A stretch of DNA of 22,738 nt from a virus. Both the position numbers and the translations under genes were made by a program. The notes beneath the pieces are model-generated. The model saw only the letters and a list, made by a program, of their open reading frames with translations. It was not told the DNA's origin and did no database searches. Below, piece after piece: positions 3,434 through 14,251 of this stretch (position 1 is its first letter; each line of letters begins with the position of its first letter). The stretch is taken from IMG/VR virus record IMGVR_UViG_3300048592_000407, positions 1 through 22,738 of that record. The stretch is one strand, 5' to 3'.

Positions 3434-3674
3434 CCCCGAGCCGTGCACCGGCGCGCTGGAGCTCTCCTGCCCGCGCTGCGGGGCGTGCTCCTGCCCCGAG
3501 GACGACCAGGACGACGGCGGCGACGACTGCCCCTTGCACGGGCCGTTCGGCCAGCACGCGAGGACGGACCTGATCCGCCGCGTGGTGGCCCGGGCGGCGG
3601 CCGCCGGGATCCTTTTCCGGGGCGCGGCCGAGCCGCCCGCGCCGCCGCTCCCGCTGTTCGAGGGCGCGCCATGA
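3426..3674 (+). CDS. Small Cys-rich, probably zinc-binding protein
   Basis: This 82-residue protein starts at GTG 3426 with the same 8-nt GTGGGTGA overlap as the gene before it. The N-terminal half carries six cysteines: C7, then CPRCGACSC, then CPLHGPFGQH, a pattern suited to one or two zinc sites. The middle is acidic (EDDQDDGGDD) and the C-terminus proline-rich. I recognise it only as a type of small phage early protein; no function can be assigned. The next gene starts within its stop codon (ATGA). Confidence 0.7.
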   Translation: MGDPEPCTGALELSCPRCGACSCPEDDQDDGGDDCPLHGPFGQHARTDLIRRVVARAAAAGILFRGAAEPPAPPLPLFEGAP

Positions 3675-4078
3675 GCGCGCAGGAGTGGACGGCGACGAGC
3701 GACCCGGAGCGCTGGTCGGGCGCTCGGCGCTGGCCGACGCGCGAGGCAGCGATCGCCGGCGCGCCGCGCGAGCTGTTCCTCAAACCCGGGGCGCGCTACA
3801 GCGTCGGGCGTGTGGAGGAGTTGGAGCCCGCGACGCTCGTCGCCGAGATGCGGGTCGACTGGCTCGCCCGCGACGTGTCCGAGCGCGTGGTCGAGGCGGC
3901 CGTCGACCTGCTCGGTGACGAGGTGGTCGGGCAGCTCAGGGAGCGCTGGCCGAGCGACGACGCGCAGCGGGCCCTTGGCGACAGCCTGCGCTGCGTGATC
4001 TCCGAGTGGCTCAGCGCCTACGCCGACATGCCCGACTGGTGGCTGGCGGTCGACGTGACCGACCACGTGGCGCCGTGA
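3671..4078 (+). CDS. Conserved-looking phage protein, function unknown
   Basis: This 135-residue protein starts at ATG 3671 in an ATGA overlap. It opens with EWTATSDPERWSG, then TREAAIAGAPREL and FLKPGARYSVGRVEELEP, and ends in an acidic region with WLSAYADMPDWWLAVDVTDH. I recall similar small proteins in phage early regions ('...DPERW...T+EEAI...L.PG..F.VGR...'), always without assigned function. The block FLKPGARYSVGRVEE may bind something, but nothing visible is catalytic. It is translationally coupled on both sides. Confidence 0.65.
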   Translation: MSAQEWTATSDPERWSGARRWPTREAAIAGAPRELFLKPGARYSVGRVEELEPATLVAEMRVDWLARDVSERVVEAAVDLLGDEVVGQLRERWPSDDAQRALGDSLRCVISEWLSAYADMPDWWLAVDVTDHVAP

Positions 4079-4320
4079 CGCCCGAGGAGCGCCGCGCCCT
4101 GGCAGACCGCGCCCTCGGCGGCAGGGGCTCGACGACCTCGCTCCGCGAGGCGCTCGCCGCCGCCGGCCTGCGCCTCGTGGGCCCCCACGAGGACGGGCAC
4201 GGCGTCCGGCGCTGGGACGTGGTGACCGCCGAAGGCCGCCCGTTCGGCTCGCGCTGGTCGCCAGTGGACATGGTGCGTTGGATTCGCGGGCAGCCCGACG
4301 GGCCGGAGGTGCTCCCGTGA
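4075..4320 (+). CDS. Small hypothetical protein
   Basis: This 81-residue protein is read from GTG 4075, which overlaps the previous stop in GTGA; in-frame starts further upstream would overlap much more. The sequence TTSLREALAAAGLRLVGPHEDGHGVRRWDVVTAEGRPFG could form a short helix followed by a beta hairpin. No Cys, no membrane segment and no family I recognise. Support comes from its place in the unbroken chain of overlapping genes. Confidence 0.55.
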   Translation: MTPEERRALADRALGGRGSTTSLREALAAAGLRLVGPHEDGHGVRRWDVVTAEGRPFGSRWSPVDMVRWIRGQPDGPEVLP

Positions 4321-4748
4321 GGCGCGGGGCCCGCCTCGTGCGCCGGACCCCGTTGCGCCGCGCGAACCCCGAGCGCCTGGCCGCTCGCCGCGAGGCCGCG
4401 TTCGGCCCGTGCTCCCGCATGGCTCGCACGCTGCCGTGCTGCTCGTGCGGCGCCCCGCCGCCCAGCGACCCCGACCACGTGCGGACGCGCGGGGCCGGCG
4501 GGCGCGACGCGGGCAACGTCGTCCCGCTCTGCCGCCGCTGCCACCAGCAGCGCCACGCGCTCGGCGTGCTGCGCTGGCAGCTCGAGCGCCGCGTGTCGCT
4601 CGCCGAGGAGGCCGCCCGTGTTGCCCGCCTCGTGGCGTCGCACGCCTGCGAGGACTACCCCGAGACCCCGCGGACCCGGGACGGCAGGGCCGTCATGGGC
4701 ACCCGCTGCGCGATCTGCCTGCGGGCGATCGAGGAGCCGACGACGTGA
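4317..4748 (+). CDS. HNH endonuclease
   Basis: This 143-residue protein starts at GTG 4317 in a GTGA overlap. It has a zinc-supported HNH (beta-beta-alpha metal) site: CCSCG at 41-45, DPDHVRTRG with His54, GNVVPLCRRCHQQRH with Asn67, Cys72, Cys75, His76 and His80. The arrangement resembles NinG / DUF968-type recombination nucleases, where the motif reads 'DH...G...N.VPLC..CH...H'. The basic N-terminus (RRGARLVRRTPLRR) may bind DNA. In the early operon a role in recombination or Holliday-junction processing is plausible; a homing or defence nuclease is less likely because it is fully coupled to its neighbours. A second Cys pair near the C-terminus (CAICL) is unexplained. Confidence 0.82.
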   Translation: MRRGARLVRRTPLRRANPERLAARREAAFGPCSRMARTLPCCSCGAPPPSDPDHVRTRGAGGRDAGNVVPLCRRCHQQRHALGVLRWQLERRVSLAEEAARVARLVASHACEDYPETPRTRDGRAVMGTRCAICLRAIEEPTT

Positions 4749-4978
4749 CCGAACACTGCTGGCACATGCAGAGCCTGTCCGTGCTGCCCCAGAGCAAGAG
4801 CAAGAAGGCCGCGACGGCGCGCCTCGAAGAGCGGTGCTGCTGGTGCGGCGTGACGCGCGTGCGGACGACGAGGGCTGTCCCTGACTCGTCGCACGGGCCC
4901 CATGAGGCCGACCCGCGCAGTCGTGTCGACGTGGACGTCGAGGACGTGCCGATGTGCGTCGAGAGGCCGGCAACATGA
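4745..4978 (+). CDS. Small Cys/His-rich protein
   Basis: This 77-residue protein starts at GTG 4745 (GTGA overlap). It has HCWHMQ at 4-9 and CCWCG at 31-35, followed by SHGPH at about 49-53, so a single zinc site built from CxH / CxxC is possible. The basic stretch QSKSKKAATARLEER lies between. I do not recognise a family. Its stop overlaps the methyltransferase start (ATGA), so it could be a partner of that enzyme, but this is inference from position only. Confidence 0.55.
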   Translation: MTEHCWHMQSLSVLPQSKSKKAATARLEERCCWCGVTRVRTTRAVPDSSHGPHEADPRSRVDVDVEDVPMCVERPAT

Positions 4979-5760
4979 TCCCGGCCGAAGGATCCGTCGT
5001 GGTCCAAGGCGAGGCTCTCGCGCTGTTAGGCCGCGTGGCTGACGCGTCGGTAGACATGGTGTGCACCGACCCGCCATACAGCAGCGGCGGCATGGTTCGC
5101 GGAGATCGCATGGTCCGCACGGGGGATAAGTATGAGCAAAGCGGACAAGCACTACAGCGCGCGGACTTCTCTGGCGACACGCGCGACCAGCGCGGCTGGG
5201 GTCACTGGTGCGCCCTGTGGCTCGCCGAGTCGTTGCGCGTCGCGAAGCCAGGCGCGTTCCTCGCCATGTTCTCCGACTGGCGTCAGCTCCCGACGGCGAC
5301 CGACGCCGTGCAGGCCGGCGGCTGGGTGTGGCGCGGGGTGATCCCGTGGCTCAAGCCAGGAGCGCGGCCGACTCTCGGGCGCCCAACGAACGCCGCCGAA
5401 TACGTCGTCTGGGCGACGAACGGCGCGGCTCCAATGGAGGGCGAGTGCCACCCGGGCTACCTGCTGGAGCGTGTTGCGCAGCGCGACAAGCACCATATGA
5501 CCGGCAAGCCCACCGGCGTCATGCGGGCTCTCGTGCGGCTGTGCCCGCCTGGCGGGGTCGTGCTCGACCCGTTCGCGGGCAGCGGGACCAGTCTCGTCGC
5601 CGCCGCGCTGGAGGGAAGGCGCGGACTTGGGTTCGAGGTGACTGCGCACTACGCGAAGGTTGCCCGCGACAGGATCGCAGCGGCGAGAGTCGGCCTCACG
5701 GTCGCCGACTCCGCGGCAGGACAGGCCCCGCTGTGGGCGACCGAGGAGCCGACGACGTGA
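4975..5760 (+). CDS. Beta-class N4-cytosine / N6-adenine DNA methyltransferase
   Basis: This 261-residue protein is read from ATG 4975 in the ATGA overlap. The catalytic motif IV, DPPY, is at residues 32-35, and the SAM-binding motif I, DPFAGSGTS, at 198-206. Motif IV before motif I is the beta-class order. The region between, with FSDWRQLP, VWRGVIPWLKPGARP and EYVVWATNG, is typical of this class and contains the target-recognition segment. It would transfer a methyl group from SAM to adenine N6 or cytosine N4; the site is not visible. No partner restriction enzyme is nearby, so it is probably an orphan phage enzyme that protects phage DNA. Codon use is a little less GC-biased than its neighbours, including a TTA leucine at residue 18. 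Confidence 0.88.
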   Translation: MIPAEGSVVVQGEALALLGRVADASVDMVCTDPPYSSGGMVRGDRMVRTGDKYEQSGQALQRADFSGDTRDQRGWGHWCALWLAESLRVAKPGAFLAMFSDWRQLPTATDAVQAGGWVWRGVIPWLKPGARPTLGRPTNAAEYVVWATNGAAPMEGECHPGYLLERVAQRDKHHMTGKPTGVMRALVRLCPPGGVVLDPFAGSGTSLVAAALEGRRGLGFEVTAHYAKVARDRIAAARVGLTVADSAAGQAPLWATEEPTT

Positions 5761-6455
5761 CGCCCGAGCGCAAGGCGCCTGCGGGCACGATCACAGGCCC
5801 GACGCTCGATACGACGTGGCAGACTCCGCCCGAGCTGTTGGAGCCCGTGCGCGCCTACTTCGGCGGCCGGATCCCGCTCGACGCTGCGACCGCGACCGAC
5901 AACCCGACGGGTGCCGATCGCTTTTTCGCGCGGCCTGAGTCCGACGGTCTGACGTGGGCGTGGTCCGGCTACGGTGGCGTCTTCTGCAATCCGCCCTACG
6001 GGCGCGTCCTGCGCGACTGGCTCGACAAGATGCGGATCGAGGCCGAGGCAGGCGCCGAGATCATCTCGCTCCTGCCGTCGGCTCGCTGGGAGCAAGCCTA
6101 CTTCCAGCGCGCCATCTGCGCGGCCAACGCGCTGTGCATGATCCGCAAGCGGGTCGCCTTCGTGCGCGCTGAAACGCGCGAGAGGGTTGCCGGCAACCCC
6201 TACGCGAACATCTTCGTAGGGTGGAACGTGGACCACGCGCGCTTCGCGGAGTCCTTCGGGCCGCACGGAGCGTGCGTGGCGCTGCGCCCGCTCGCCCCGT
6301 GCCCGGAGAACGTGAAGCGACCAGCGCCCGCGAAGCGCAACGAGCGGGCGTTCGCGCGGGGCGAGCGGCCGAGGACGACTCCGCGCGTGCCCGAGGCGCC
6401 AGCGCCCGCCGTCATCTGCCGCGACACGCTCGACCTGTTTGGAGATGACGCATGA
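5757..6455 (+). CDS. Phage Dam-type N6-adenine methyltransferase
   Basis: This 232-residue protein starts at GTG 5757 (GTGA overlap). The N-terminus TTWQTPPELLEPVRAYFG, then PLDAATATDNP, then the catalytic NPPYG (residues 78-82) are the hallmarks of the phage N-6-adenine-methyltransferase family (DAM, PF05869). The block ETRERVAGNPYANIFVGW is also typical. The last ~60 residues are basic and proline-rich and look disordered. It follows directly after a beta-class methyltransferase, so the phage likely carries two different methylation specificities. Role: anti-restriction or replication/packaging marking, by inference. Confidence 0.9.
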   Translation: MTPERKAPAGTITGPTLDTTWQTPPELLEPVRAYFGGRIPLDAATATDNPTGADRFFARPESDGLTWAWSGYGGVFCNPPYGRVLRDWLDKMRIEAEAGAEIISLLPSARWEQAYFQRAICAANALCMIRKRVAFVRAETRERVAGNPYANIFVGWNVDHARFAESFGPHGACVALRPLAPCPENVKRPAPAKRNERAFARGERPRTTPRVPEAPAPAVICRDTLDLFGDDA

Positions 6456-6790
6456 CCGACGATGCCGACGACACCGACGACGCCTGGCTCGCGCGCGCCC
6501 GCGCGCTGCGCGCCGAGCTGCGGGCGCAGCCCGAGCCGCTCCTCCTGCCGTGGGGCGACGTGATCTGGGACCGCGAGATCGGGTCTCCGCATGACCGCGT
6601 GCACGCAAAGCGCCTGTGGATCCCGCGCGGTCTCGTGGGCGTCGACGCGGACGGCTACGCGCCGCCGCGCCTGCGCACAGAAGACCCGCACGGGGCCGCC
6701 GCGCAGGCCGCGCGCCTCCGCATGGCTCTCGTGCTCGACGCCGACTCGCCGGACGGCTGGCGCCTGGTGGACCTGGTGGAGACCCCATGA
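6452..6790 (+). CDS. Small hypothetical protein
   Basis: This 112-residue protein starts at ATG 6452 (ATGA overlap). The N-terminus is very acidic (TDDADDTDDAW), followed by a helix (LARARALRAELRAQ) and then LLLPWGDVIWDREIG and AKRLWIPRGLVGVDADG. No known motif is visible. It sits between the methyltransferase and the replication-like gene and overlaps both by 4 nt, so it is co-translated with them. Confidence 0.6.
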   Translation: MTDDADDTDDAWLARARALRAELRAQPEPLLLPWGDVIWDREIGSPHDRVHAKRLWIPRGLVGVDADGYAPPRLRTEDPHGAAAQAARLRMALVLDADSPDGWRLVDLVETP

Positions 6791-8235
6791 GCGCCGACCT
6801 GCTGACCCCCGCCGAGGCCGCCGCGCTCCTGCGCGTGACCCCCGAGACGGTCCGCCGCTGGGTGCGCGCCGCCCGCCCGGCGCTCGACGAGCCCGAGGCC
6901 CCGCCGGCCGCCGTGTCGGACCCGCCTGCTACGCCTGCCCCCATGCCCTCGCGCCCGGACCACGCCCGCCTGCCCGCCCGGGCCCTCGCTGCCCTGCGCA
7001 CCCTCGTGGCGCACGCGGGGGCCGACGGGCGGGTGGGGGCCTCGCGCGCCGCCGTCGAGCGCGCCGCCGGGCTCTCGACGGCGGCCTACACGCGCGCCCT
7101 GGACGACCTCGAGCGGGCCGGGCTCGTCGATCGCGCCCCACAGGGCTGGCGCGACCCGCTCACGGGCGCCTGGCCGACCCGCGCGGTCACGGTGACCGCC
7201 GCCGGCCGCGACCGCGCCGCCGTGCTCACCTGCCCCGCCGAGGTGAGCACCGGTGAGCACGGGGTGAGCACGGGTGAGCACGGCTCGGTGAGCACGGGTG
7301 AGCATCTTGTACAAGATTCCTCTCCTCCTCTTCTTATGAGGAAAAAGGAGGAGAGGAAGGAGGAAGGAGAGCCGTGCTCACTGAGCACGGGTGAGCACGG
7401 GGTGAGCACGGCTCAGGTGAGCACGGGTGAGCACGGCGCCCCCGTGGTCACCGGCGACTGCGTGCTGGTCCGCCTGCCCGCCTCGTGGGGCCCTGCGGTC
7501 GTCGCCCGCGCTCTGCGCGCTCTCGCCGACGCGCTCGACCCCCAGCCGGTCGTCGCCCCCCAGCAGCCAGCCCCTGCCGCGCCACCCTCGCCGGCGCCGC
7601 AGGCCGTCCGTCCCGCGCAGCGCCTCGACGAGCGCGACCATCGCGGCTGGACTGGCCACGACGCTGCCGGCCCGTGCCTGCGCGACCCGGCCCACGGCGA
7701 CTGCACGCCCCGTCTCACCCGCTCCGAGCCCCGCGAGTGGATCGCCTACTGCCCGGTCTGCGACGCGGTGAGGGACCCCGCGAAGCTCGAGGCCGCCCGC
7801 GTCGCCACCATGCACCCCGAGGGCGCGGCCAGGGCGCGCAGGCCTGAGCCCCCGCCCGAGCCCCCGGGTCACCGAGCAGGTCGACGGCCGCTGACGGACC
7901 GCTGGGCCGAGGCGGCCGAGCGCACGCGCGCTGAGCTCGGCGAGGCGGGCACGGGGGCAGGCGCAGTAGCGCGGGCCCTGGCCGAGGCCGAGCGCAGCGA
8001 GGGCATGACCCTGCGCGAGCGCGTAGCGGCTGCGCGCGCTGCCGCCCGGCCCGTGATCCCGCAGCGCCGAGCTCAGCGCGCGTGCGCCAGCTCGTGGGGG
8101 CTGGGTGATGGCCGAGACGAACCCGGACCCGGCCGCTCGGGGTCGGCGCGCTCGCCGCGCCGATCGCGGGGACAACCTGTACTTCGACCCGAAGCTCGGG
8201 ACGTTCGTCTGGCGGAAGGTCCACCCCGAGACTAA
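6787..8235 (+). CDS. Putative replication initiator with HTH and winged-helix domains
   Basis: This 482-residue protein starts at ATG 6787 (ATGA overlap). Residues 5-30 (LLTPAEAAALLRVTPETVRRWVR) are a MerR/excisionase-like helix-turn-helix. Residues 58-150 (ARALAALRTLVAHAG...GASRAAVERAAGLSTAAYTRALDDLERAGLVDR) look like a winged helix. Residues 153-216 are encoded by the iteron arrays and hairpin and read as VSTGEHG repeats with a charged centre (KKEERKEEGE). The C-terminal part is proline-rich, with CPVCD and a late helical region. An initiator gene that contains its own origin is known from lambda O and relatives; that comparison is by architecture, not homology. It could instead be a regulator acting on these repeats. 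The last 131 nt overlap the integrase gene, and that tail looks like out-of-frame sequence. Confidence 0.65.
   Translation: MSADLLTPAEAAALLRVTPETVRRWVRAARPALDEPEAPPAAVSDPPATPAPMPSRPDHARLPARALAALRTLVAHAGADGRVGASRAAVERAAGLSTAAYTRALDDLERAGLVDRAPQGWRDPLTGAWPTRAVTVTAAGRDRAAVLTCPAEVSTGEHGVSTGEHGSVSTGEHLVQDSSPPLLMRKKEERKEEGEPCSLSTGEHGVSTAQVSTGEHGAPVVTGDCVLVRLPASWGPAVVARALRALADALDPQPVVAPQQPAPAAPPSPAPQAVRPAQRLDERDHRGWTGHDAAGPCLRDPAHGDCTPRLTRSEPREWIAYCPVCDAVRDPAKLEAARVATMHPEGAARARRPEPPPEPPGHRAGRRPLTDRWAEAAERTRAELGEAGTGAGAVARALAEAERSEGMTLRERVAAARAAARPVIPQRRAQRACASSWGLGDGRDEPGPGRSGSARSPRRSRGQPVLRPEARDVRLAEGPPRD
7243..7305 (+). repeat. Left iteron array, GTGAGCAC
   Basis: Exact copies start at 7243, 7253, 7264, 7274 and 7288, with a last-base variant (GTGAGCAT) at 7298. 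Steps are 10, 11, 10, 14 and 10 bp, so most copies lie on the same face of the helix. Two iterons make a 21-bp unit encoding VSTGEHG. One inverted copy (GTGCTCAC) lies outside at 7222-7229. Confidence 0.9.
7304..7371. other. Central palindrome and purine/pyrimidine hairpin
   Basis: ATCTTGTACAAGAT at 7304-7317 is a perfect 14-bp palindrome. TTCCTCTCCTCC at 7317-7328 pairs perfectly with GGAGGAGAGGAA at 7347-7358. The + strand is all pyrimidine over 7317-7335 and all purine over 7338-7371, an asymmetry that favours unwinding or triplex-type structure. Confidence 0.85.
7374..7434 (+). repeat. Right iteron array, GTGAGCAC
   Basis: An inverted copy GTGCTCAC at 7374-7381 abuts a variant CTGAGCAC at 7381-7388, giving a 7-bp inverted repeat around one base. 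Exact direct copies start at 7391, 7402, 7417 and 7427. Steps are 10, 11, 15 and 10 bp, close to those of the left array. The copies have the same orientation as the left array, not mirror orientation. Confidence 0.9.
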
Positions 8236-9541
8236 GAAGCGCCTCTGGCGCGACACGCGGCAGACCAGGCGCGACCTGGCCCGGCGGGTCGCGGTGCGCT
8301 TCGACGACGAGCTGCGCGAGGAGCTCGCGGGCGTCGTCCGGGTCGAGGGGTGGGGGCTCGAGCTCGCCCCGCTCGCCGAGGCCTGGGTCGCGGCCGCGCA
8401 GGTCGGGGACCGGGTGCGCGCGGCTCGGCGCGTCCTGATCCTGCGCGCCCTGGCCGACCTGCGGTTGCGCCGGGCGTCGGACCTGCGGGACGTCGCCGGG
8501 ATCGACGAGCGCCTGCGCGCCCTCGGGCACGGGCTGAACAAGGCCCGGCGCGGCTACCAGGACCCGTTGCGGGCCTTCTCGCGGTGGCTCGCCGGGAACC
8601 ATCGTCACCTGCCGACGGACCCGCTGGCGTCGTGGGAGCTACTACCGACGGTGGCGCCGGGCCCGGACGAGGGCCGGCGGGCCCTCATGCCCGCCGAGGC
8701 CGCGGGGGCGTTCCTCGCGCTGCTCGCGCTGGACCGGGAACGGTCGGTGCCTGCGCTGCCGCTGATCCGCGCGCTGTTCGCGACCGGGGCGCGGATCGGG
8801 GCCCTGCTCTCGCGGACCGTCGCCGACTTCGACCCGCAGGAGCGCAGGATCGACCTCGGGCCGGGGGTCGGGCGCAAGCGACGGGGGGCGGGCGCCCTCG
8901 ACGACGCGACCGCTGCGCTGGTCGTGCACGCGGTAGGCGACCGCCAGGCGGGGGCCCTGTTCCTCTCGCCGCAGGGGCGCGCCTGGGACCGCTGGACCGT
9001 CGTGGACGCATGGCGCGGGGCCCTCGGGCTCTGGTTCACGGCCGACTTCTGGCCCGACGACGAGGACCAGGATCCCGAGCTCGTGCGGCTGGTCACCCGG
9101 ACCCTCGAGACGGGCAAGCCGCCCGTGTCCAAGGGCGGGAGCCGGCTGCGGGCCGAGACGGTGGCGGCCCGCGCGGCGCTCGCCCGGCGCGTCGAGGCGC
9201 TCGCCGACCGGCTGCGCGAGGCCTGGGCCGACCGGCTGCGCGGGTGCGACGTCCACGCGATCCGCAAGACGCACCGGACCTGGGCCGAGGTCTCGGGCGT
9301 CCCGGCTGCCGTGATCGACGCGCAGATCGGCCACGCGGACGCCGGGCACGAGGGGGCCCTCGGGCCGCTGCGCGCGCTCGCCGCGGGGTCAACCACGGGC
9401 CGGCGGTTCTACCTGGACCTACGCTCGCCGATCTTCGAGCCGCGACGCTCGGCCGAGGCCGTCTGCGGGTTGCTCGACGCCGCCCTCGCCGAGCTGGCCG
9501 ACGCGCCCCGCGCCCGGCTGCTCGCGCCCGTTCGGACGTAA
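8105..9541 (+). CDS. int: Tyrosine recombinase / phage integrase
   Basis: The protein has 478 residues from GTG 8105 (477 from the ATG at 8108; either could be used). The N-terminal part (DNLYFDPKLGTFVWRKV...) should bind arm-type sites, residues ~95-180 the core-binding helical domain. The catalytic domain shows Arg I in RALFATGARIGALLSRTVADF (R230), HAIRKTHRTW (H384, R387), the following IGHAD, and the nucleophile Tyr436 in TTGRRFYLDL. It integrates phage DNA by strand exchange at att sites. The non-coding stretch right after the stop holds a plausible attP. A large insertion (about residues 300-360) separates the Arg I and HxxR regions. It begins 131 nt before the preceding gene's apparent stop. 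Confidence 0.92.
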   Translation: MMAETNPDPAARGRRARRADRGDNLYFDPKLGTFVWRKVHPETKKRLWRDTRQTRRDLARRVAVRFDDELREELAGVVRVEGWGLELAPLAEAWVAAAQVGDRVRAARRVLILRALADLRLRRASDLRDVAGIDERLRALGHGLNKARRGYQDPLRAFSRWLAGNHRHLPTDPLASWELLPTVAPGPDEGRRALMPAEAAGAFLALLALDRERSVPALPLIRALFATGARIGALLSRTVADFDPQERRIDLGPGVGRKRRGAGALDDATAALVVHAVGDRQAGALFLSPQGRAWDRWTVVDAWRGALGLWFTADFWPDDEDQDPELVRLVTRTLETGKPPVSKGGSRLRAETVAARAALARRVEALADRLREAWADRLRGCDVHAIRKTHRTWAEVSGVPAAVIDAQIGHADAGHEGALGPLRALAAGSTTGRRFYLDLRSPIFEPRRSAEAVCGLLDAALAELADAPRARLLAPVRT

Positions 9542-9555
9542 GCCCAGGTCGATCC

Positions 9556-9666
9556 GTGTAGGTGTGTAGGTCGCGTGTAGGTTCCGGGCCGACCTACACG
9601 CGACCTACACGCACTCAACCCGTCTGGCCTCATGCCCTTACGGAGCAGAATGTAGGTCGTGTAGGT
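9556..9666. repeat. Left arm-type site cluster, GTGTAGGT
   Basis: Direct copies at 9556, 9564, 9575 and 9659, inverted copies at 9592 and 9603, and a one-base variant at 9650. The 19-mer GTGTAGGTCGCGTGTAGGT (9564-9582) is matched perfectly by its inverse at 9592-9610 with a 9-nt loop, so a 19-bp stem is possible. It could also end int transcription, but no T-run follows. The 11-bp phasing favours protein binding. Confidence 0.85.
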
Positions 9667-9717
9667 TTCCTCTACCCTTACGCGCGAGAGTTTTCCATGC
9701 CGTTGGCATGGGTCTCA

Positions 9718-9738
9718 TGGCAGTAGGGGTGGCAGTAG
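9718..9738 (+). repeat. TGGCAGTAG tandem, copy 1
   Basis: TGGCAGTAG occurs at 9718 and 9730, 12 bp apart. A copy of this 21-bp arrangement, differing at one base, lies at 9926-9946. The two pairs bracket the tRNA-like core and are distinct from the GTGTAGGT sites. They may bind an accessory factor (excisionase or host protein); this is inference. Confidence 0.8.
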
Positions 9739-9763
9739 ACGGGCGCCGACCGCCGTAAACCTT

Positions 9764-9805
9764 TGGAGACGAAGGGGATCGAACCCTCAACCCCCAGCTT
9801 GCAAA
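9764..9805 (-). other. attP core: 3' part of a tRNA-Ala(UGC)-like sequence
   Basis: Read on the - strand it gives an anticodon loop TTTGCAA with anticodon TGC, a stem strand GCTGG, a short variable region, a T arm with loop TTCGATC between GAGGG and CCCTT, an acceptor strand CGTCTCC and discriminator A. A T at position 70 fits the G3:U70 identity pair of tRNA-Ala. The expected 5' partner strands (CCAGC, GGGGACG) are absent, so it is a fragment, not a gene. Homology seems to start at the anticodon loop, a common crossover point. No CCA is encoded. Confidence 0.75.
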
Positions 9806-9925
9806 TGCCCAATCTGGTTACACCTGGAGACCCCTGGCGACCCCGTTCGGGACACAACGGGCGGTGCCCGCGGGGCCTGTGGGGTCGCGGGGTGTAGCAG
9901 GGTGTATCCCGCGACCACCCGGCCG

Positions 9926-9946
9926 TGGCAGTAGGCGTGGCAGTAG
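9926..9946 (+). repeat. TGGCAGTAG tandem, copy 2
   Basis: TGGCAGTAG at 9926 and 9938, again 12 bp apart. It matches the first tandem at 9718-9738 except for one base in the spacer (gcg for ggg). It lies about 120 bp right of the core. Confidence 0.8.
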
Positions 9947-10046
9947 GGTGGTTGTTCACGGTGGCGGACGGCTGGTCTCGGCTGCGTGCCACGGGATCCC
10001 GAAAACGCATGTTCTGGGGAGCGACAAGGTGCGATTTTCCTGCACG

Positions 10047-10157
10047 ACCTACACTTTTCGGCGCAAGCCGCTGAGCTCGTGCGACTTGGGCTCGTGTAGG
10101 TCGCGTGTAGGTGGGGGGAACGACCTACACGAACGGCCCCGACCTACACGAACGGCC
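10047..10157. repeat. Right arm-type site cluster, GTGTAGGT
   Basis: Inverted copies at 10047, 10123 and 10142, direct copies at 10094 and 10105. The 19-mer at 10094-10112 is identical to 9564-9582. GACCTACACGAACGGCC occurs at 10122-10138 and 10141-10157, a 17-bp direct repeat with a 19-bp period. Confidence 0.85.
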
Positions 10158-10328
10158 GCCCGGCCGACCGACCCCACGCGGGCCCGCCTGGCGCACGCTG
10201 GACCCGGGCCCGCACCGAACCGGCCGGGGGCCCTGCGCGCGTGCGTCCTCGGGCCTCGCTCGCCGTCGCGCGCTTCAACGGCGTCGGCCTACCGGAATCG
10301 CCAGCGCGGGCCCGTCGGGGGCGGGCGG

Positions 10329-10334
10329 TAGCCT
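10329..10334 (+). promoter_or_regulatory. Possible -10 element TAGCCT of a leaderless transcript
   Basis: TAGCCT ends 6 nt before ATG 10341, which fits the TANNNT -10 of leaderless genes where transcription starts at the start codon. No clear Shine-Dalgarno and no good -35 is visible. Confidence 0.45.
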
Positions 10335-10340
10335 GGGCGC

Positions 10341-10556
10341 ATGAGCAGCCCGCGTAGCCGCGCCTGGACCGACCGTGCTCGAGCGGCCGGCGTGAAGGCC
10401 GCTCGAGAGGGGCACGGGCCCGAGGACTGCCCGCGCTGGCTCCGGCCCGAGCTCGTGCGGGCGTGGCGCTCGGGCTGGTCGGAGGCCGCGGTCGAGCAGG
10501 CGCGCGAGGACCTGCGCGCCCAGGCCGAGACGAACCCGACGCCGGCCGCCGGCTGA
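10341..10556 (+). CDS. Rmf/CrpP-like small protein
   Basis: This 71-residue basic protein starts at ATG 10341. The core AGVKAAREGHGPEDCP then LVRAWRSGWSEA (about residues 16-49) follows the ribosome modulation factor / CrpP pattern: G..AA..G....DCP...........AW..GW..A. Rmf in gamma-proteobacteria helps form hibernating 100S ribosomes; the CrpP-like proteins share the fold but their roles are disputed. The gene stands alone between attP and the packaging genes. In an integrated prophage it would lie at the end next to the host chromosome, a usual place for genes expressed in lysogens. The assignment rests on a short motif, so function is inference. Confidence 0.65.
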   Translation: MSSPRSRAWTDRARAAGVKAAREGHGPEDCPRWLRPELVRAWRSGWSEAAVEQAREDLRAQAETNPTPAAG

Positions 10557-10958
10557 CCCGGCCGGGCCCGCTCGGGCCTGGCACGTAGCCGCCGCCCTCT
10601 GCCTGGGTCGCTCCTGGGCCGAACGCCTGCGAGCCCCCAGGGCGGGCGCTCGCCGTCCGGTGCCGCCGGGCGACCCCCGCGATCCGGCCGGCGCCCTGGC
10701 GCCCCCCGCGTGAGCCCAGGGGTGCCACCCACAGGGCGGGGGGGGTGTCTTTGGGTCCTCCCCACAAGTCCTTTGCCTGAGCTGCGAGGGCTTCCTCTGT
10801 GGGAGGGTTTCACGCACCCGGGACATATGTCCCGGGTGCGTCGCCCGGGCGCTGGCGTAGCGCGTCGCCTACGGTCCGGGTTCGTCTCGCGTCGCCGGCG
10901 CCGCGGTCGCCCGCTCGGGCGCCTCCCGGCTGGCGTGGCGCGGGCCCGGGCGACCCGC
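10557..10958. other. Non-coding gap upstream of the packaging region
   Basis: I see no convincing gene here on either strand. It holds a run of eight Gs (10738-10745), a less GC-biased stretch (10746-10812) and a perfect palindrome (10812-10841). A cos or other packaging site near here would suit a phage with a GpA-type terminase, but no such site can be proven by eye. Confidence 0.5.
10812..10841. repeat. Perfect 30-bp palindrome
   Basis: The half-site acgcacccgggacat is followed at once by its exact reverse complement, with CATATG at the centre. No T-run follows on either strand, so a simple intrinsic terminator is doubtful. It may be an operator, a terminator-like hairpin behind the Rmf-like gene, or part of a packaging site. 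Confidence 0.9.
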
Positions 10959-10964
10959 TACTCT
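10959..10964 (+). promoter_or_regulatory. Possible -10 element TACTCT of a leaderless transcript
   Basis: TACTCT ends 6 nt before GTG 10971, the same spacing as for the genes at 10341, 11814 and 14751. The start is followed by GTGGCCCTC, also seen at 14751. Confidence 0.5.
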
Positions 10965-10970
10965 GTGCGC

Positions 10971-11771
10971 GTGGCCCTCCCCGTCGTCGTCCCCGAGTGC
11001 GGTCCGTCCTGCGGGTGCTGGGCGTGCGTCGACGGGCCCGAGCCCGCGCCCGCTGGTCCCCTCGCGGTCGAGATCGAGCTCGTCAACGGGACCCGATACG
11101 GCTCGTTCGCGGAGTGGGCCCTCGCCGTCCGCAAGAACCTGCGCGCGGCCTACGGCGAGCCCACCCGCCGTGCGCCAGCCGTCGCCCGCGCGCCCGTGGC
11201 GCCGGTCGCCCCGCTGTCGCCCGAGTCGAGCACCGACGAGCTGGTCGCCGAGCTCGTGCGCCGCGAGGCCGCGCGCAAGGCGACGGTCGCCGAGCGGGCG
11301 CGGGCCCGGGCGACCGACCCGGCGCTGGTCGCGGCCCGGCGCGAGCGCCAGCGGGCGCGCTACCACGAGCAGCGCGAGGCCGCGCGCAAGGCCGCTGAGG
11401 CGGCGCCGCTGCCGGTCGTGTCGACGCCCCCGGCTGCGCCAGCCTTCTCGCCGGGCAGCCTCGCGGCGAGCGTCGACGCCGAGCGCGCGCGCTTCGCCCC
11501 CGCCGCCCCCGAGGCGCCCGGCCCGGGCGCCGTCGTGGTGCGCGGGTCGAGCGACCTGGTGCGCTGGCTCGCGGGCCCGGGCCGGGATCGGGTGGCGCTC
11601 TGCCGCGAGGACCTCGCCCCGCTCGCCCTGGCGATCCTCGACGACGTGCGCGCGAACGCGATCCTCGGCGAGTCGCCCGAGGACTGCCCGCGACTCGGCG
11701 GGGACTGGTCGGGCTACCTCGAGCGGGTCGACCTCGAGCGGCTGATCGACGGGCTGGCGGCGAGGGCGTAG
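10971..11771 (+). CDS. Cys-cluster and coiled-coil protein, function unknown
   Basis: This 266-residue protein is read from GTG 10971; the frame is open much further upstream, but that part looks non-coding and the promoter-like element supports this start. A GTG at 10965 is also possible. The N-terminus carries CGPSCGCWAC (residues 10-19), a possible metal site. Residues ~85-145 are a highly charged Ala/Arg/Glu helix (VAELVRREAARKATVAERARARAT...RRERQRARYHEQREAARKAAE). The C-terminus has SSDLVRWLAGPGRDRVALCREDLAPLALAILDDVRANAILG. No family recognised. It lies just before the small terminase, where some phages carry HNH or packaging-associated genes. Confidence 0.6.
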   Translation: MALPVVVPECGPSCGCWACVDGPEPAPAGPLAVEIELVNGTRYGSFAEWALAVRKNLRAAYGEPTRRAPAVARAPVAPVAPLSPESSTDELVAELVRREAARKATVAERARARATDPALVAARRERQRARYHEQREAARKAAEAAPLPVVSTPPAAPAFSPGSLAASVDAERARFAPAAPEAPGPGAVVVRGSSDLVRWLAGPGRDRVALCREDLAPLALAILDDVRANAILGESPEDCPRLGGDWSGYLERVDLERLIDGLAARA

Positions 11772-11801
11772 CGCGCCGGGGTCCCTGTCGGACCCGTCTG
11801 G

Positions 11802-11807
11802 CAGGGT
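11802..11807 (+). promoter_or_regulatory. Possible -10 element CAGGGT of a leaderless transcript
   Basis: CAGGGT ends 6 nt before GTG 11814. The hexamer departs from TANNNT at the first base. No ribosome-binding site is visible between it and the start. Confidence 0.4.
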
Positions 11808-11813
11808 GCGCGG

Positions 11814-12383
11814 GTGGCTCTCACCCGCGCGCAACTCGCCGCCGAGCTCGACATCGCGGAGAAGACCGTCACCCGATGGGTGGCCGCGGGCTGCCCGCAC
11901 GCGCGCGGAGCGCGCGGCGCGCTGCAGTTCGACCTCGCTGCGGTCGTCGAGTGGATGCGCGCGCAGGGGCGGACCGGAGAGCGCGGGCGCCCGACAGGCG
12001 GCAGCTACGCGCCGGTCGGGCCAGGCCAGCCGCCGAGCGCTGAGCGCACGGCGCCGCAGCCAGGCCCGCACCCAGCCCCCGGCGAGAAGCCGTCGCGGGA
12101 GGAGCTGCGCCGGCTGCGCGACGAGGTCGAGCTCCGGATCAAGGAGCTCGAGGCGACGAAGCGCGACCGGCTCGAGCGCGAGGCCGGCGGCGAGCTCGTG
12201 CGCTCCGAGGACGTGCGGCGGTTCTGGGCGAGCCGCGTCGAGCTCGTGCGCCAGGGCTTCGACGCGCTGCCGTCACGCCTGGCGCAGCGGTGCGCCGGGC
12301 GACAGGCCGAGGAGGTCCACGACGAGGCGCGCGACGAGCTCGAGCGCCTGCTGCACAGCTTCGCCGGAGGCGCGCCGTGGTGA
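11814..12383 (+). CDS. Terminase small subunit, Nu1-like
   Basis: This 189-residue protein starts at GTG 11814. Residues 3-35 (LTRAQLAAELDIAEKTVTRWVAAGCP) form the MerR-like winged helix-turn-helix typical of lambda Nu1, followed by FDLAAVVEWMRAQ. A proline-rich linker (about 60-90) leads to a long coiled coil (SREELRRLRDEVELRIKELE...RDRLEREAGGELV, about 92-130), which would mediate assembly and contact with the large subunit. The order with the GpA-type large terminase directly downstream (4-nt overlap) supports this strongly. It recognises the packaging site on phage DNA. Confidence 0.85.
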   Translation: MALTRAQLAAELDIAEKTVTRWVAAGCPHARGARGALQFDLAAVVEWMRAQGRTGERGRPTGGSYAPVGPGQPPSAERTAPQPGPHPAPGEKPSREELRRLRDEVELRIKELEATKRDRLEREAGGELVRSEDVRRFWASRVELVRQGFDALPSRLAQRCAGRQAEEVHDEARDELERLLHSFAGGAPW

Positions 12384-14251
12384 GCGCACCGGCCGGGCTG
12401 TGGGCCGAGCTCGACGCGCTGTGGCGCCCGCGGCCCCGCCTCGGAGGGGCCGAGTGGGCGGAGCGCGAGCGCGTGCTCGGAGCGGACGAGTCGCCGCTGC
12501 CAGGGCCGTGGCGGTCGGTGCCGTGGCAGCGCGAGATCCTCGACGCGCTCGCGGACGTCAGCGTCAGCGATCTGCTGATTTTGAAGGGCACGCAGGTCGG
12601 CGCGTCGGAGGTGATCCGTTGCGCGATCGGGCGCTGGGCTCTGCACGATCCGGGCGACGTGCTGTGGGTCATGACCACGGAGCACGCGGCCCGCCGCGCA
12701 ATGAAGAAGCTGCAGGCCATGTTCACGAACACGCCGACGCTGCGCCCGCTCGTGAGCGAGCGCAAGCGCGACACGGCGCTGCTCGAGATGGTACTCGCCA
12801 CGGGCATGCGGATCGTGATCGGTTGGGCCGGGTCTGCGCAGAGCCTCTCGTCGGACCCGTTTCGCTACGTCGTGTTCGACGAGGTCGCGAAATACGTGTG
12901 GGACGTGCAGGGAGAGGGCTCGCCGACGGCCCTCGGTCGCGACCGCACGAAGGCTCACGGCCTGCGCGGCAAGCGGGTCTACGTGTCTAGCCCGAAGTCG
13001 GAGGGAGACCCGATCGTCACGGGCTGGCGCGAGACGTCGGACCGGCGCGTCTTCGCGGCTCCGTGCCCGTCGTGCGGCCTTGCGCAGCCGTTCGAGTGGT
13101 GCCGCGTGCGCTGGCGCGCAGGTGGATCGGTGGTCGGGCCTGACGAGGCGCCGCAGGACCCGGAGCGCCGAGTCGAGCAGGCCGAGGAGCTCGAGCGCAC
13201 GCGCGCGGCGTGGCTCGCCTGCGAGGAGCCGGGCTGCTCGGGGCAGATCGAGCCGAGCGCGGCGCAGTCGCAGCCAGGCGCGAGGTGGCAGCCCGAGGCC
13301 GAGGCGGTCGAGCCTGGGCGCCGGCGCGCCTACCACGTCCCCGAGGCCTGGCACTGGGCCACGACCACGGCCGACCTCGCAGCGAAGTTCCTGCGCTCGA
13401 TCCACCCGAAGGACCGGCACGTCTTCTTCACGGGCGCCCTTGGCATGCCCGAGGCGAGCGCGGAGTCGCGGATCGAGGTCTCGCTGATCGAGGGGCGCGC
13501 GCTGTGGGCCCGCGGCGTGGTCCCGGCCTGGGCGAGCGTCGTCGTGGCGACGGCCGACACGCAGATGGCTGGCTGGTGGCACATGGTCCGCGCATGGGGA
13601 CCTGGCGGGCGCTCGCGCCTGCTCGACTGGGGGTTCGTCGAGACCGAGGCCGAGTTGCTCGCGCGCGCGCTCGACGCGACCTACCCGATCGAGGGTAAAC
13701 ACGAGGCCGAGCGCGCGCCGATCATGCGGCTCGGGATCGACACGGGCGGCGGCATGGAGACGCCCGACGGGTCGCGCACGCAGCAGGTCTACCGGCTGAT
13801 CCAGCGGAATCCGCGCGTGCTCGGGCTCAAGGGCGAGGGCGACCGCGCGGCGAACGAGGGCCAGCCATGGCGCGAGTCGAAGAGCGGGGCCGTCACGCTC
13901 TACCTGCTGAACCGCAGCTACTACGCGGACCTGGCGGCCTCGCTGATCCGCGCGCGCCCGGTCCTGTGGGAGGAGTGCGTCGGCGCCGAGGACCCGGCCT
14001 ACGCGCGCCAACTCGCGAGCGAGCACGTCGTGACCGAGACGACTGCTCGCGGCACGCGGCGCGTCTGGCGCAAGCGGAACAGCCGCAGCGCGAATCACCT
14101 GTGGGACTGCGCGCGCTACCAGGTGTTCCTCTCGGAGCACGTGCGCGCGGAGGACCGGCGCATGCCGGCCTGGACGGCGCGCCCGTCCGTGCGCCGGGCC
14201 GAGGAGCGGGCGCGAGACGAGGGCCGCCGGCCCTGGAAGATCGGGAGGTAG
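12380..14251 (+). CDS. Terminase large subunit, GpA family
   Basis: The protein has 623 residues from GTG 12380; an adjacent GTG at 12377 is equally possible. Walker A is LKGTQVGASE (Lys69), Walker B RYVVFDEVAKY (Asp167, Glu168). SPKSEGDPIVTGW and a zinc-knuckle insert follow (C229, C232, C281, C286: CPSCG and CEEPGC), as in GpA. The nuclease half shows TADTQ (Asp393), RLGIDTGGGM and NHLWDCARYQVFL. Family length and order match lambda gpA. It cuts concatemeric DNA and drives it into the prohead through the portal. Phages with this family often, not always, use cos ends. Confidence 0.95.
   Translation: MSAPAGLWAELDALWRPRPRLGGAEWAERERVLGADESPLPGPWRSVPWQREILDALADVSVSDLLILKGTQVGASEVIRCAIGRWALHDPGDVLWVMTTEHAARRAMKKLQAMFTNTPTLRPLVSERKRDTALLEMVLATGMRIVIGWAGSAQSLSSDPFRYVVFDEVAKYVWDVQGEGSPTALGRDRTKAHGLRGKRVYVSSPKSEGDPIVTGWRETSDRRVFAAPCPSCGLAQPFEWCRVRWRAGGSVVGPDEAPQDPERRVEQAEELERTRAAWLACEEPGCSGQIEPSAAQSQPGARWQPEAEAVEPGRRRAYHVPEAWHWATTTADLAAKFLRSIHPKDRHVFFTGALGMPEASAESRIEVSLIEGRALWARGVVPAWASVVVATADTQMAGWWHMVRAWGPGGRSRLLDWGFVETEAELLARALDATYPIEGKHEAERAPIMRLGIDTGGGMETPDGSRTQQVYRLIQRNPRVLGLKGEGDRAANEGQPWRESKSGAVTLYLLNRSYYADLAASLIRARPVLWEECVGAEDPAYARQLASEHVVTETTARGTRRVWRKRNSRSANHLWDCARYQVFLSEHVRAEDRRMPAWTARPSVRRAEERARDEGRRPWKIGR

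Follow-up and report, generated by a model that had tools for sequence, protein, structure and literature searches.

What kind of site do the repeats downstream of the integrase gene of virus record IMGVR_UViG_3300048592_000407 compose, and which protein reads which of them? We addressed these questions in the window, which is the whole stretch of DNA analysed (22,738 nucleotides), and in related loci of planctomycete genomes. The segment is an intact attP, a known kind of site from a little-known phage group. In the reading that we prefer, with a probability of roughly 0.7 given the comparisons below, it would be the attP of a temperate tailed planctomycete phage in which inner tandem repeats of the TGG type serve as integrase arm sites and arrays of GTGTAGGT form an outer tier.

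Anatomy of the site beside the integrase gene

The features on which the argument depends are as follows.

6787 to 8235, + strand: open reading frame upstream of int, with N-terminal HTH_17 and MarR-like stretches whose matches lie under the Pfam cut-offs
8105 to 9541, + strand: int, tyrosine recombinase of 478 amino acids, GTG start, with an ATG at 8108
9556 to 9610, both strands: outer tier, cluster 1, GTGTAGGT at 9556+, 9564+, 9575+, 9592- and 9603-
9650 to 9666, + strand: outer tier, cluster 2, ATGTAGGT at 9650 and GTGTAGGT at 9659
9670 to 9742, + strand: predicted hairpin in a terminator-like place, containing the inner P arm (fold of 9660-9742, z -4.4)
9718 to 9738, + strand: arm pair proposed for the integrase on its own side of the core (P, inner tier), TGGCAGTAGGGGTGGCAGTAG, starting 84 bp before the middle of the core
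9764 to 9805, - strand: attP core, equivalent to the 3' half of a tRNA-Ala(UGC) gene (anticodon loop through 3' end)
9926 to 9946 (about 9924-9947), + strand: arm pair proposed for the integrase on the distal side (P', inner tier), TGGCAGTAGGCGTGGCAGTAG, at +124
10047 to 10054, - strand: outer tier, single GTGTAGGT, from the count of exact sites
10094 to 10149, both strands: outer tier, cluster 3, GTGTAGGT at 10094+, 10105+, 10123- and 10142-

The window integrase is a divergent tyrosine recombinase. It matched a PHROG integrase (E 5.9e-10), its PF00589 score of 21.2 bits was under the Pfam cut-off of 27.1, and its catalytic set (R230, K258, H384, R387, H410 and Y436) was complete, with R230, K258, R387 and Y436 invariant across 13 sequences. 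The top PDB match of the structural model (mean pLDDT 82.9) was lambda Int (E 2.3e-4). The N-terminal domain of the model comprised strands at residues 25-28, 33-39 and 46-50 and a helix at 56-74, and residues 20-74 matched the arm-binding domain of lambda Int (1kjk) with a modest Z of 5.5 (rmsd 3.0, 49 aligned residues). As modelled, the protein is of the lambda-Int type, with predicted N-terminal arm-binding, core-binding and catalytic domains. Phage lambda has a three-domain integrase and an attP core with arm sites to either side, and the window is alike in both respects; it differs in its tRNA-gene target, its two-tier repeats and the low identity of its integrase to lambda chains (11-16% in structural alignments).

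Exact GTGTAGGT sites numbered 11, all within 9556-10149 and none elsewhere in the 22.7-kb window, against an expectation of 0.09 and a maximum of 2 in 100 dinucleotide shuffles; a 12th copy with one mismatch, ATGTAGGTCG, lies at 9650. The preliminary description of this DNA had reported a 19-mer, GTGTAGGTCGCGTGTAGGT, among single GTGTAGGT sites. The 19-mer was confirmed at the positions given there, direct at 9564-9582 and 10094-10112 and inverted at 9592-9610, and the single sites lie at 9556, 9659, 10047(-), 10123(-) and 10142(-). The paired sites keep the 11-bp phasing proposed there, and other spacings depart from it: 9556/9564 (8 bp), 9650/9659 (9 bp) and 10123/10142 (19 bp). The orientations run +++-- then ++ on the left and - then ++-- on the right, with a palindromic ++-- block on each side of the core. 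With the anticodon-loop middle as zero, the sites span -246 to -143 and +245 to +340, and the left arrays begin 15 bp past the int stop codon.

A second tandem repeat pair, absent from the preliminary description, lies nearer the core. It has a 12-bp period and is of the type TGGCAGTAGG(G/C)GTGGCAGTAG; TGGCAGTAGGGGTGGCAGTAG and TGGCAGTAGGCGTGGCAGTAG are direct repeats in the same orientation, one pair on either side of the core. This anatomy and the tRNA origin of the core can be read directly from the letters; the crossover is presumably in the anticodon loop, the middle base of which is 9802. ARAGORN found no complete tRNA in the window, folding of the core region gave no excess of structure, and the Rfam matches in the attP segment were all far under their gathering scores.

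The window also carries terminase, portal and protease genes, and its two ends share no direct repeat of 15 to 200 bases. The presence of both arms on one molecule had been taken to argue for a free phage sequence. That argument is weakened, as two bacterial contigs (L085 and L086) also have a core with arms on both sides, so that tandem insertions might look like the window and the arms are not proof of a free form. The missing 5' half of the tRNA is better evidence, and both arms together with a core that lacks this half fit an excised or packaged genome.

Relatives of the integrase and the position of the inner repeats

The host is probably a member of the Planctomycetota. A search of 392 genomes of this phylum with the integrase gave matches in 20, and the best five genomes (G165, G179, G192, G150 and G045) belong to one order, with best matches at 41-48% identity to the window integrase. 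The integrase family occurs in one small class, in 6 of the 12 genomes sampled (22 match rows, representing 21 genes or fragments). Relatives at 39-47% identity carry motifs other than those of the window, and a near-identical integrase was not found. The first and third best matches of the window terminase in the phylum sample fell in G150 and G179, and the tRNA-Ala(UGC) genes of these two genomes (L070/L071) have 3 mismatches to 40 core bases, with identical T arm and acceptor. The check suggested beforehand, for a host tRNA-Ala(UGC) gene with an adjacent prophage, reached these two genomes, but no lysogen carrying the window's own prophage was found. The exact core had no match in the viral or genome collections, and a looser search of the genome collection reached one planctomycete MAG. 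Searches of viral contigs with the integrase and the terminase, and of phage records with the integrase, returned no relative; the terminases of the phage collection were all distant (<60% identity).

In seven cases a family integrase gene stops shortly before a tRNA gene whose 3' end faces it, as in the window, the tRNAs being Gly, Pro, Thr, Arg, Met, His and Ala(UGC). At all seven, a TGG tandem (period 11 or 12 bp) begins at a distance of 89-94 bp from the 3' end of the tRNA. Among 16 other tRNAs in the fetched loci, none had such a tandem at 85-95 bp, and two had one elsewhere (59 and 100 bp). No tRNA or core was found directly adjoining 12 of the 21 family genes or fragments, which therefore provide no test of the arm pattern. 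L085 and L086 each hold a 3' piece of tRNA-Gly with TGG tandems on both sides, the integrase-side arms lying at 93 and 92 bp. When distances were taken from the anticodon-loop middle, the integrase-side tandem started at -128 to -132 in eight loci; in the ninth, L030, it lies 90 bp from the tRNA 3' end. Beyond the core, five of six distal copies examined had a TGG-type repeat at 112-145 bp, with starts at +112 (L077), +125 (L085), +124 (L086), +145 (L080) and +121 (L119). Arms were absent from L123, a copy of a tRNA-Gly piece with two mismatches.

L085, L086 and L080 came from a prior scan for tandems, and for these loci the existence of the repeat was therefore selected and its position was not. 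L119 was tested after the other positions had been noted: a second copy of the L031 tRNA-Thr piece, on another G192 contig, carries TGGATGCGCTGGTGGATGCGT at +121, which pairs with TGGATGCACTATGGATGC at -129. The same kind of search found no second tRNA-Met copy. Taken locus by locus, the tandem gave p values of 0.24 for L012, 0.06 for L037 and about 0.002-0.03 for the other scored arms; another repeat outscored the arm pair in the distal stretch of L086, and the stretch of L030 used in this test was too short to contain the arm.

The integrated element in L077 is bounded by an intact tRNA-Arg on one side and by its 45-base duplicate on the other, with an identical 21-base arm beside each, so that the two arms stand about 10 kb apart at the two ends of the element, each next to a copy of the tRNA core. 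This bears out the identification of the window segment as an attP with both arms and a tRNA-Ala(UGC)-derived core beside int. The L077 element itself (3587-13787, about 10 kb) carries CHC2 primase, DUF5906 and AAA genes; of eight proteins checked in it, none matched a phage structural family, and it is perhaps a satellite. Two G165 contigs (L080 at 7761-7963 and L079 at 1664-1850) hold tRNA-His pieces with matching TGGGGAA-type arms and are probably the two ends of one tRNA-His element on separate contigs. The L080 core had first been assigned to integrase L010, and the far end of the element that ends in L079 is the better fit.

The P' inner pair of the window, at +124, occupies the same place as in L085, L086 and L119. 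The P inner pair, at -84, is about 46 bp nearer the core than in relatives, and the strongest P-side tandem in the window is the outer tier, not the inner pair. A hairpin lies between arm and tRNA in L077, and in the window the predicted hairpin at 9670-9742 contains the arm; a moved terminator might explain the shift of the P pair.

Outer arrays and the assignment of proteins to the two tiers

Repeated 8-mers were in excess in the outer zones of four of eight elements (the window, L077, L085 and L031) and not in those of L086, L012, L037 and L080. Cross pairs of 8-mers between the two arms numbered 105 in the window against 1.4 in shuffles, 12 against 1.7 in L077 and 78 against 3.6 in L031/L119; the values for L085 (5 against 4.4) and L086 (3 against 2.4) were not significant. 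Sharing from arm to arm was thus clear in three of five elements. Pairs across different elements numbered 0-5, with one exception at 14. On these comparisons of sequence, three elements have a genuine outer tier, each with a motif of its own. In L031, the GGGCAG repeats had been considered as the arms; this was dropped when a TGG tandem was found at the conserved distance, and they are now counted as outer tier. Separately, L085 contains units of about 60 bp with TGGCCCACAGG-like repeats beside its att core (7930-8080).

The outer pair was found with one mismatch in 7 of the 392 phylum genomes and never exactly, and a reversed control gave scattered matches as well; the GTGTAGGT motif was accordingly taken as private to the window phage. 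The inner motif was at background level when up to 3 mismatches were allowed, and an exact scan of viral contigs for it returned none. The sole 19-mer match in a viral contig, L008, was taken as chance (44% GC, two 8-mer copies, no integrase match). In that contig, TCTTACAC repeats surround the single 19-mer copy (1480-1850).

Considering these results, we propose that the integrase would recombine the 3' half of the tRNA-Ala(UGC) gene by crossing over within the anticodon loop, the tRNA then being restored by the phage copy. Both arms would be held in the intasome through the inner TGG-type tandems (9718-9738 and 9926-9946), and the outer GTGTAGGT arrays might be bound by a second phage-encoded protein, whether a directionality factor or a regulator that forms loops, or by additional integrase. 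We infer this allocation of proteins to tiers, and with it any bending of the DNA and control of direction. The inner tier is regarded as the integrase arm set because of its position, its orientation, its presence across the family and its likeness to the arm sites of Cluster J phages.

Assigning the outer tier to a directionality factor or loop-forming protein is a guess. Directionality-factor-like small genes lie upstream of int in four relatives: those of L076 and L072 pass the HTH_17 cut-off, that of L077 has weak HTH matches and that of L075 was judged by eye. Upstream of int in the window, inspection by eye showed only the larger HTH_17/MarR-like frame at 6787-8235. A link between the small genes and the outer tier is unproven, since L072 (element L012) is without a significant outer tier. 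We suggest tentatively, and as a doubtful extension, that there is a family of planctomycete elements with two-tier att sites. In this family the inner pairs would keep a constant distance to the crossover, the outer arrays would have motifs private to each element and matched between its ends, and a second, co-evolving protein would read these arrays, bridge the arms and set the direction of recombination.

The arrays could instead be what the preliminary description took them for, arm-type sites bound cooperatively by the integrase at 11-bp spacing, with the inner TGGCAGTAG repeats left to another protein. GTGTAGGT is the most numerous repeat, is found on both arms and shares its period of 11 with the arm pairs of L080, L079, L037 and L031. 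The best argument left for this assignment is that the integrase N-terminal domains of the three clear outer-tier elements (window, L031 and L032) look alike by eye, which fits binding by that domain. However, the outer tier is missing or not significant in several relatives and its motif is out of register with the arm of every relative, whereas an inner TGG tandem stands in register at nine of nine integrase-side sites. The position and type conserved across the family are those of the inner tandem, which the window also has, and we consider integrase binding to GTGTAGGT unlikely.

Slightly less probable still is that a transcription repressor uses the arrays as operators, or that they are a control site of another kind, with no role in recombination. 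Both clusters have the palindromic ++-- layout and one of them lies upstream of an open reading frame at 10341, but a start 15 bp past the int stop would be odd for an operator, the arrays stand on both sides of the core, and the outer tiers of two relatives flank the core with different motifs. It is very improbable that the palindrome at 9564-9610 is merely the int transcription terminator. Its RNA fold is strong (z -6.9) and directly follows int, yet a further copy of the 19-mer, in direct orientation, stands at a distance of 530 bp, and there are single sites outside any palindrome of this kind.

Comparison with known systems and other features of the window

In the literature searched, we found no report of a planctomycete phage attachment site. 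The available text on the Cluster J mycobacteriophages (Omega, BAKA and others) describes a tyrosine integrase with attP on its 3' side, a 44-bp core that ends within the anticodon loop of a tRNA gene, and two pairs of direct repeats, P1/P2 and P3/P4, that flank this core with one pair to either side (PMC3706429). The order of int and attP, the anticodon-loop core and the paired direct repeats on both sides are alike in the window. The host phylum and the TGCATAC-type motif are different, and that text does not describe outer arrays on both arms (PMC3706429).

In the available account of ICEMlSymR7A, IntS has arm-type repeats and a separate oligomerising directionality factor, RdfS, binds within attP (PMC11963761). 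Repeated arm-type sites for a tyrosine integrase are common to that element and the window; its attP of 283 bp has five arm sites, and its RdfS sites are without a clear consensus, in contrast to the highly regular outer tier seen here (PMC11963761). The KplE1 prophage (IntS, TorI) is described as carrying arm-type sites and short clustered directionality-factor sites on one att DNA (PMC2951348). In the part of that description available, the factor sites are on attL near the intS promoter, whereas the outer arrays of the window are downstream of int and on both arms (PMC2951348).

If the proposed reading is true, the geometry of about -130 and +124 from the crossover would be a rule for locating the ends of integrated elements in these genomes, and integrase-attP cassettes could be suggested for Planctomycetota genetics. 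It would also pose a clean question, namely the identity of the protein that reads the outer tier.

Further features were observed in the window. Nine GGTGAGCAC direct repeats at 7242-7434, in groups spaced 10-11 bp, lie inside the frame at 6787-8235 and flank on both sides a stretch richer in A+T (51% AT at 7300-7380). This looks like a replication origin with iterons within an initiator gene, and the frame might encode a replication initiator or an accessory DNA-binding protein. Between attP and the terminase gene, the frame at 10341-10556 (71 amino acids) resembles ribosome modulation factor (PF04957, E 3.8e-6, just below the Pfam cut-off). Tandem repeats of 12 bp (GGGCCGCCGCCT type), which may be coding repeats, occupy 1099-1397.
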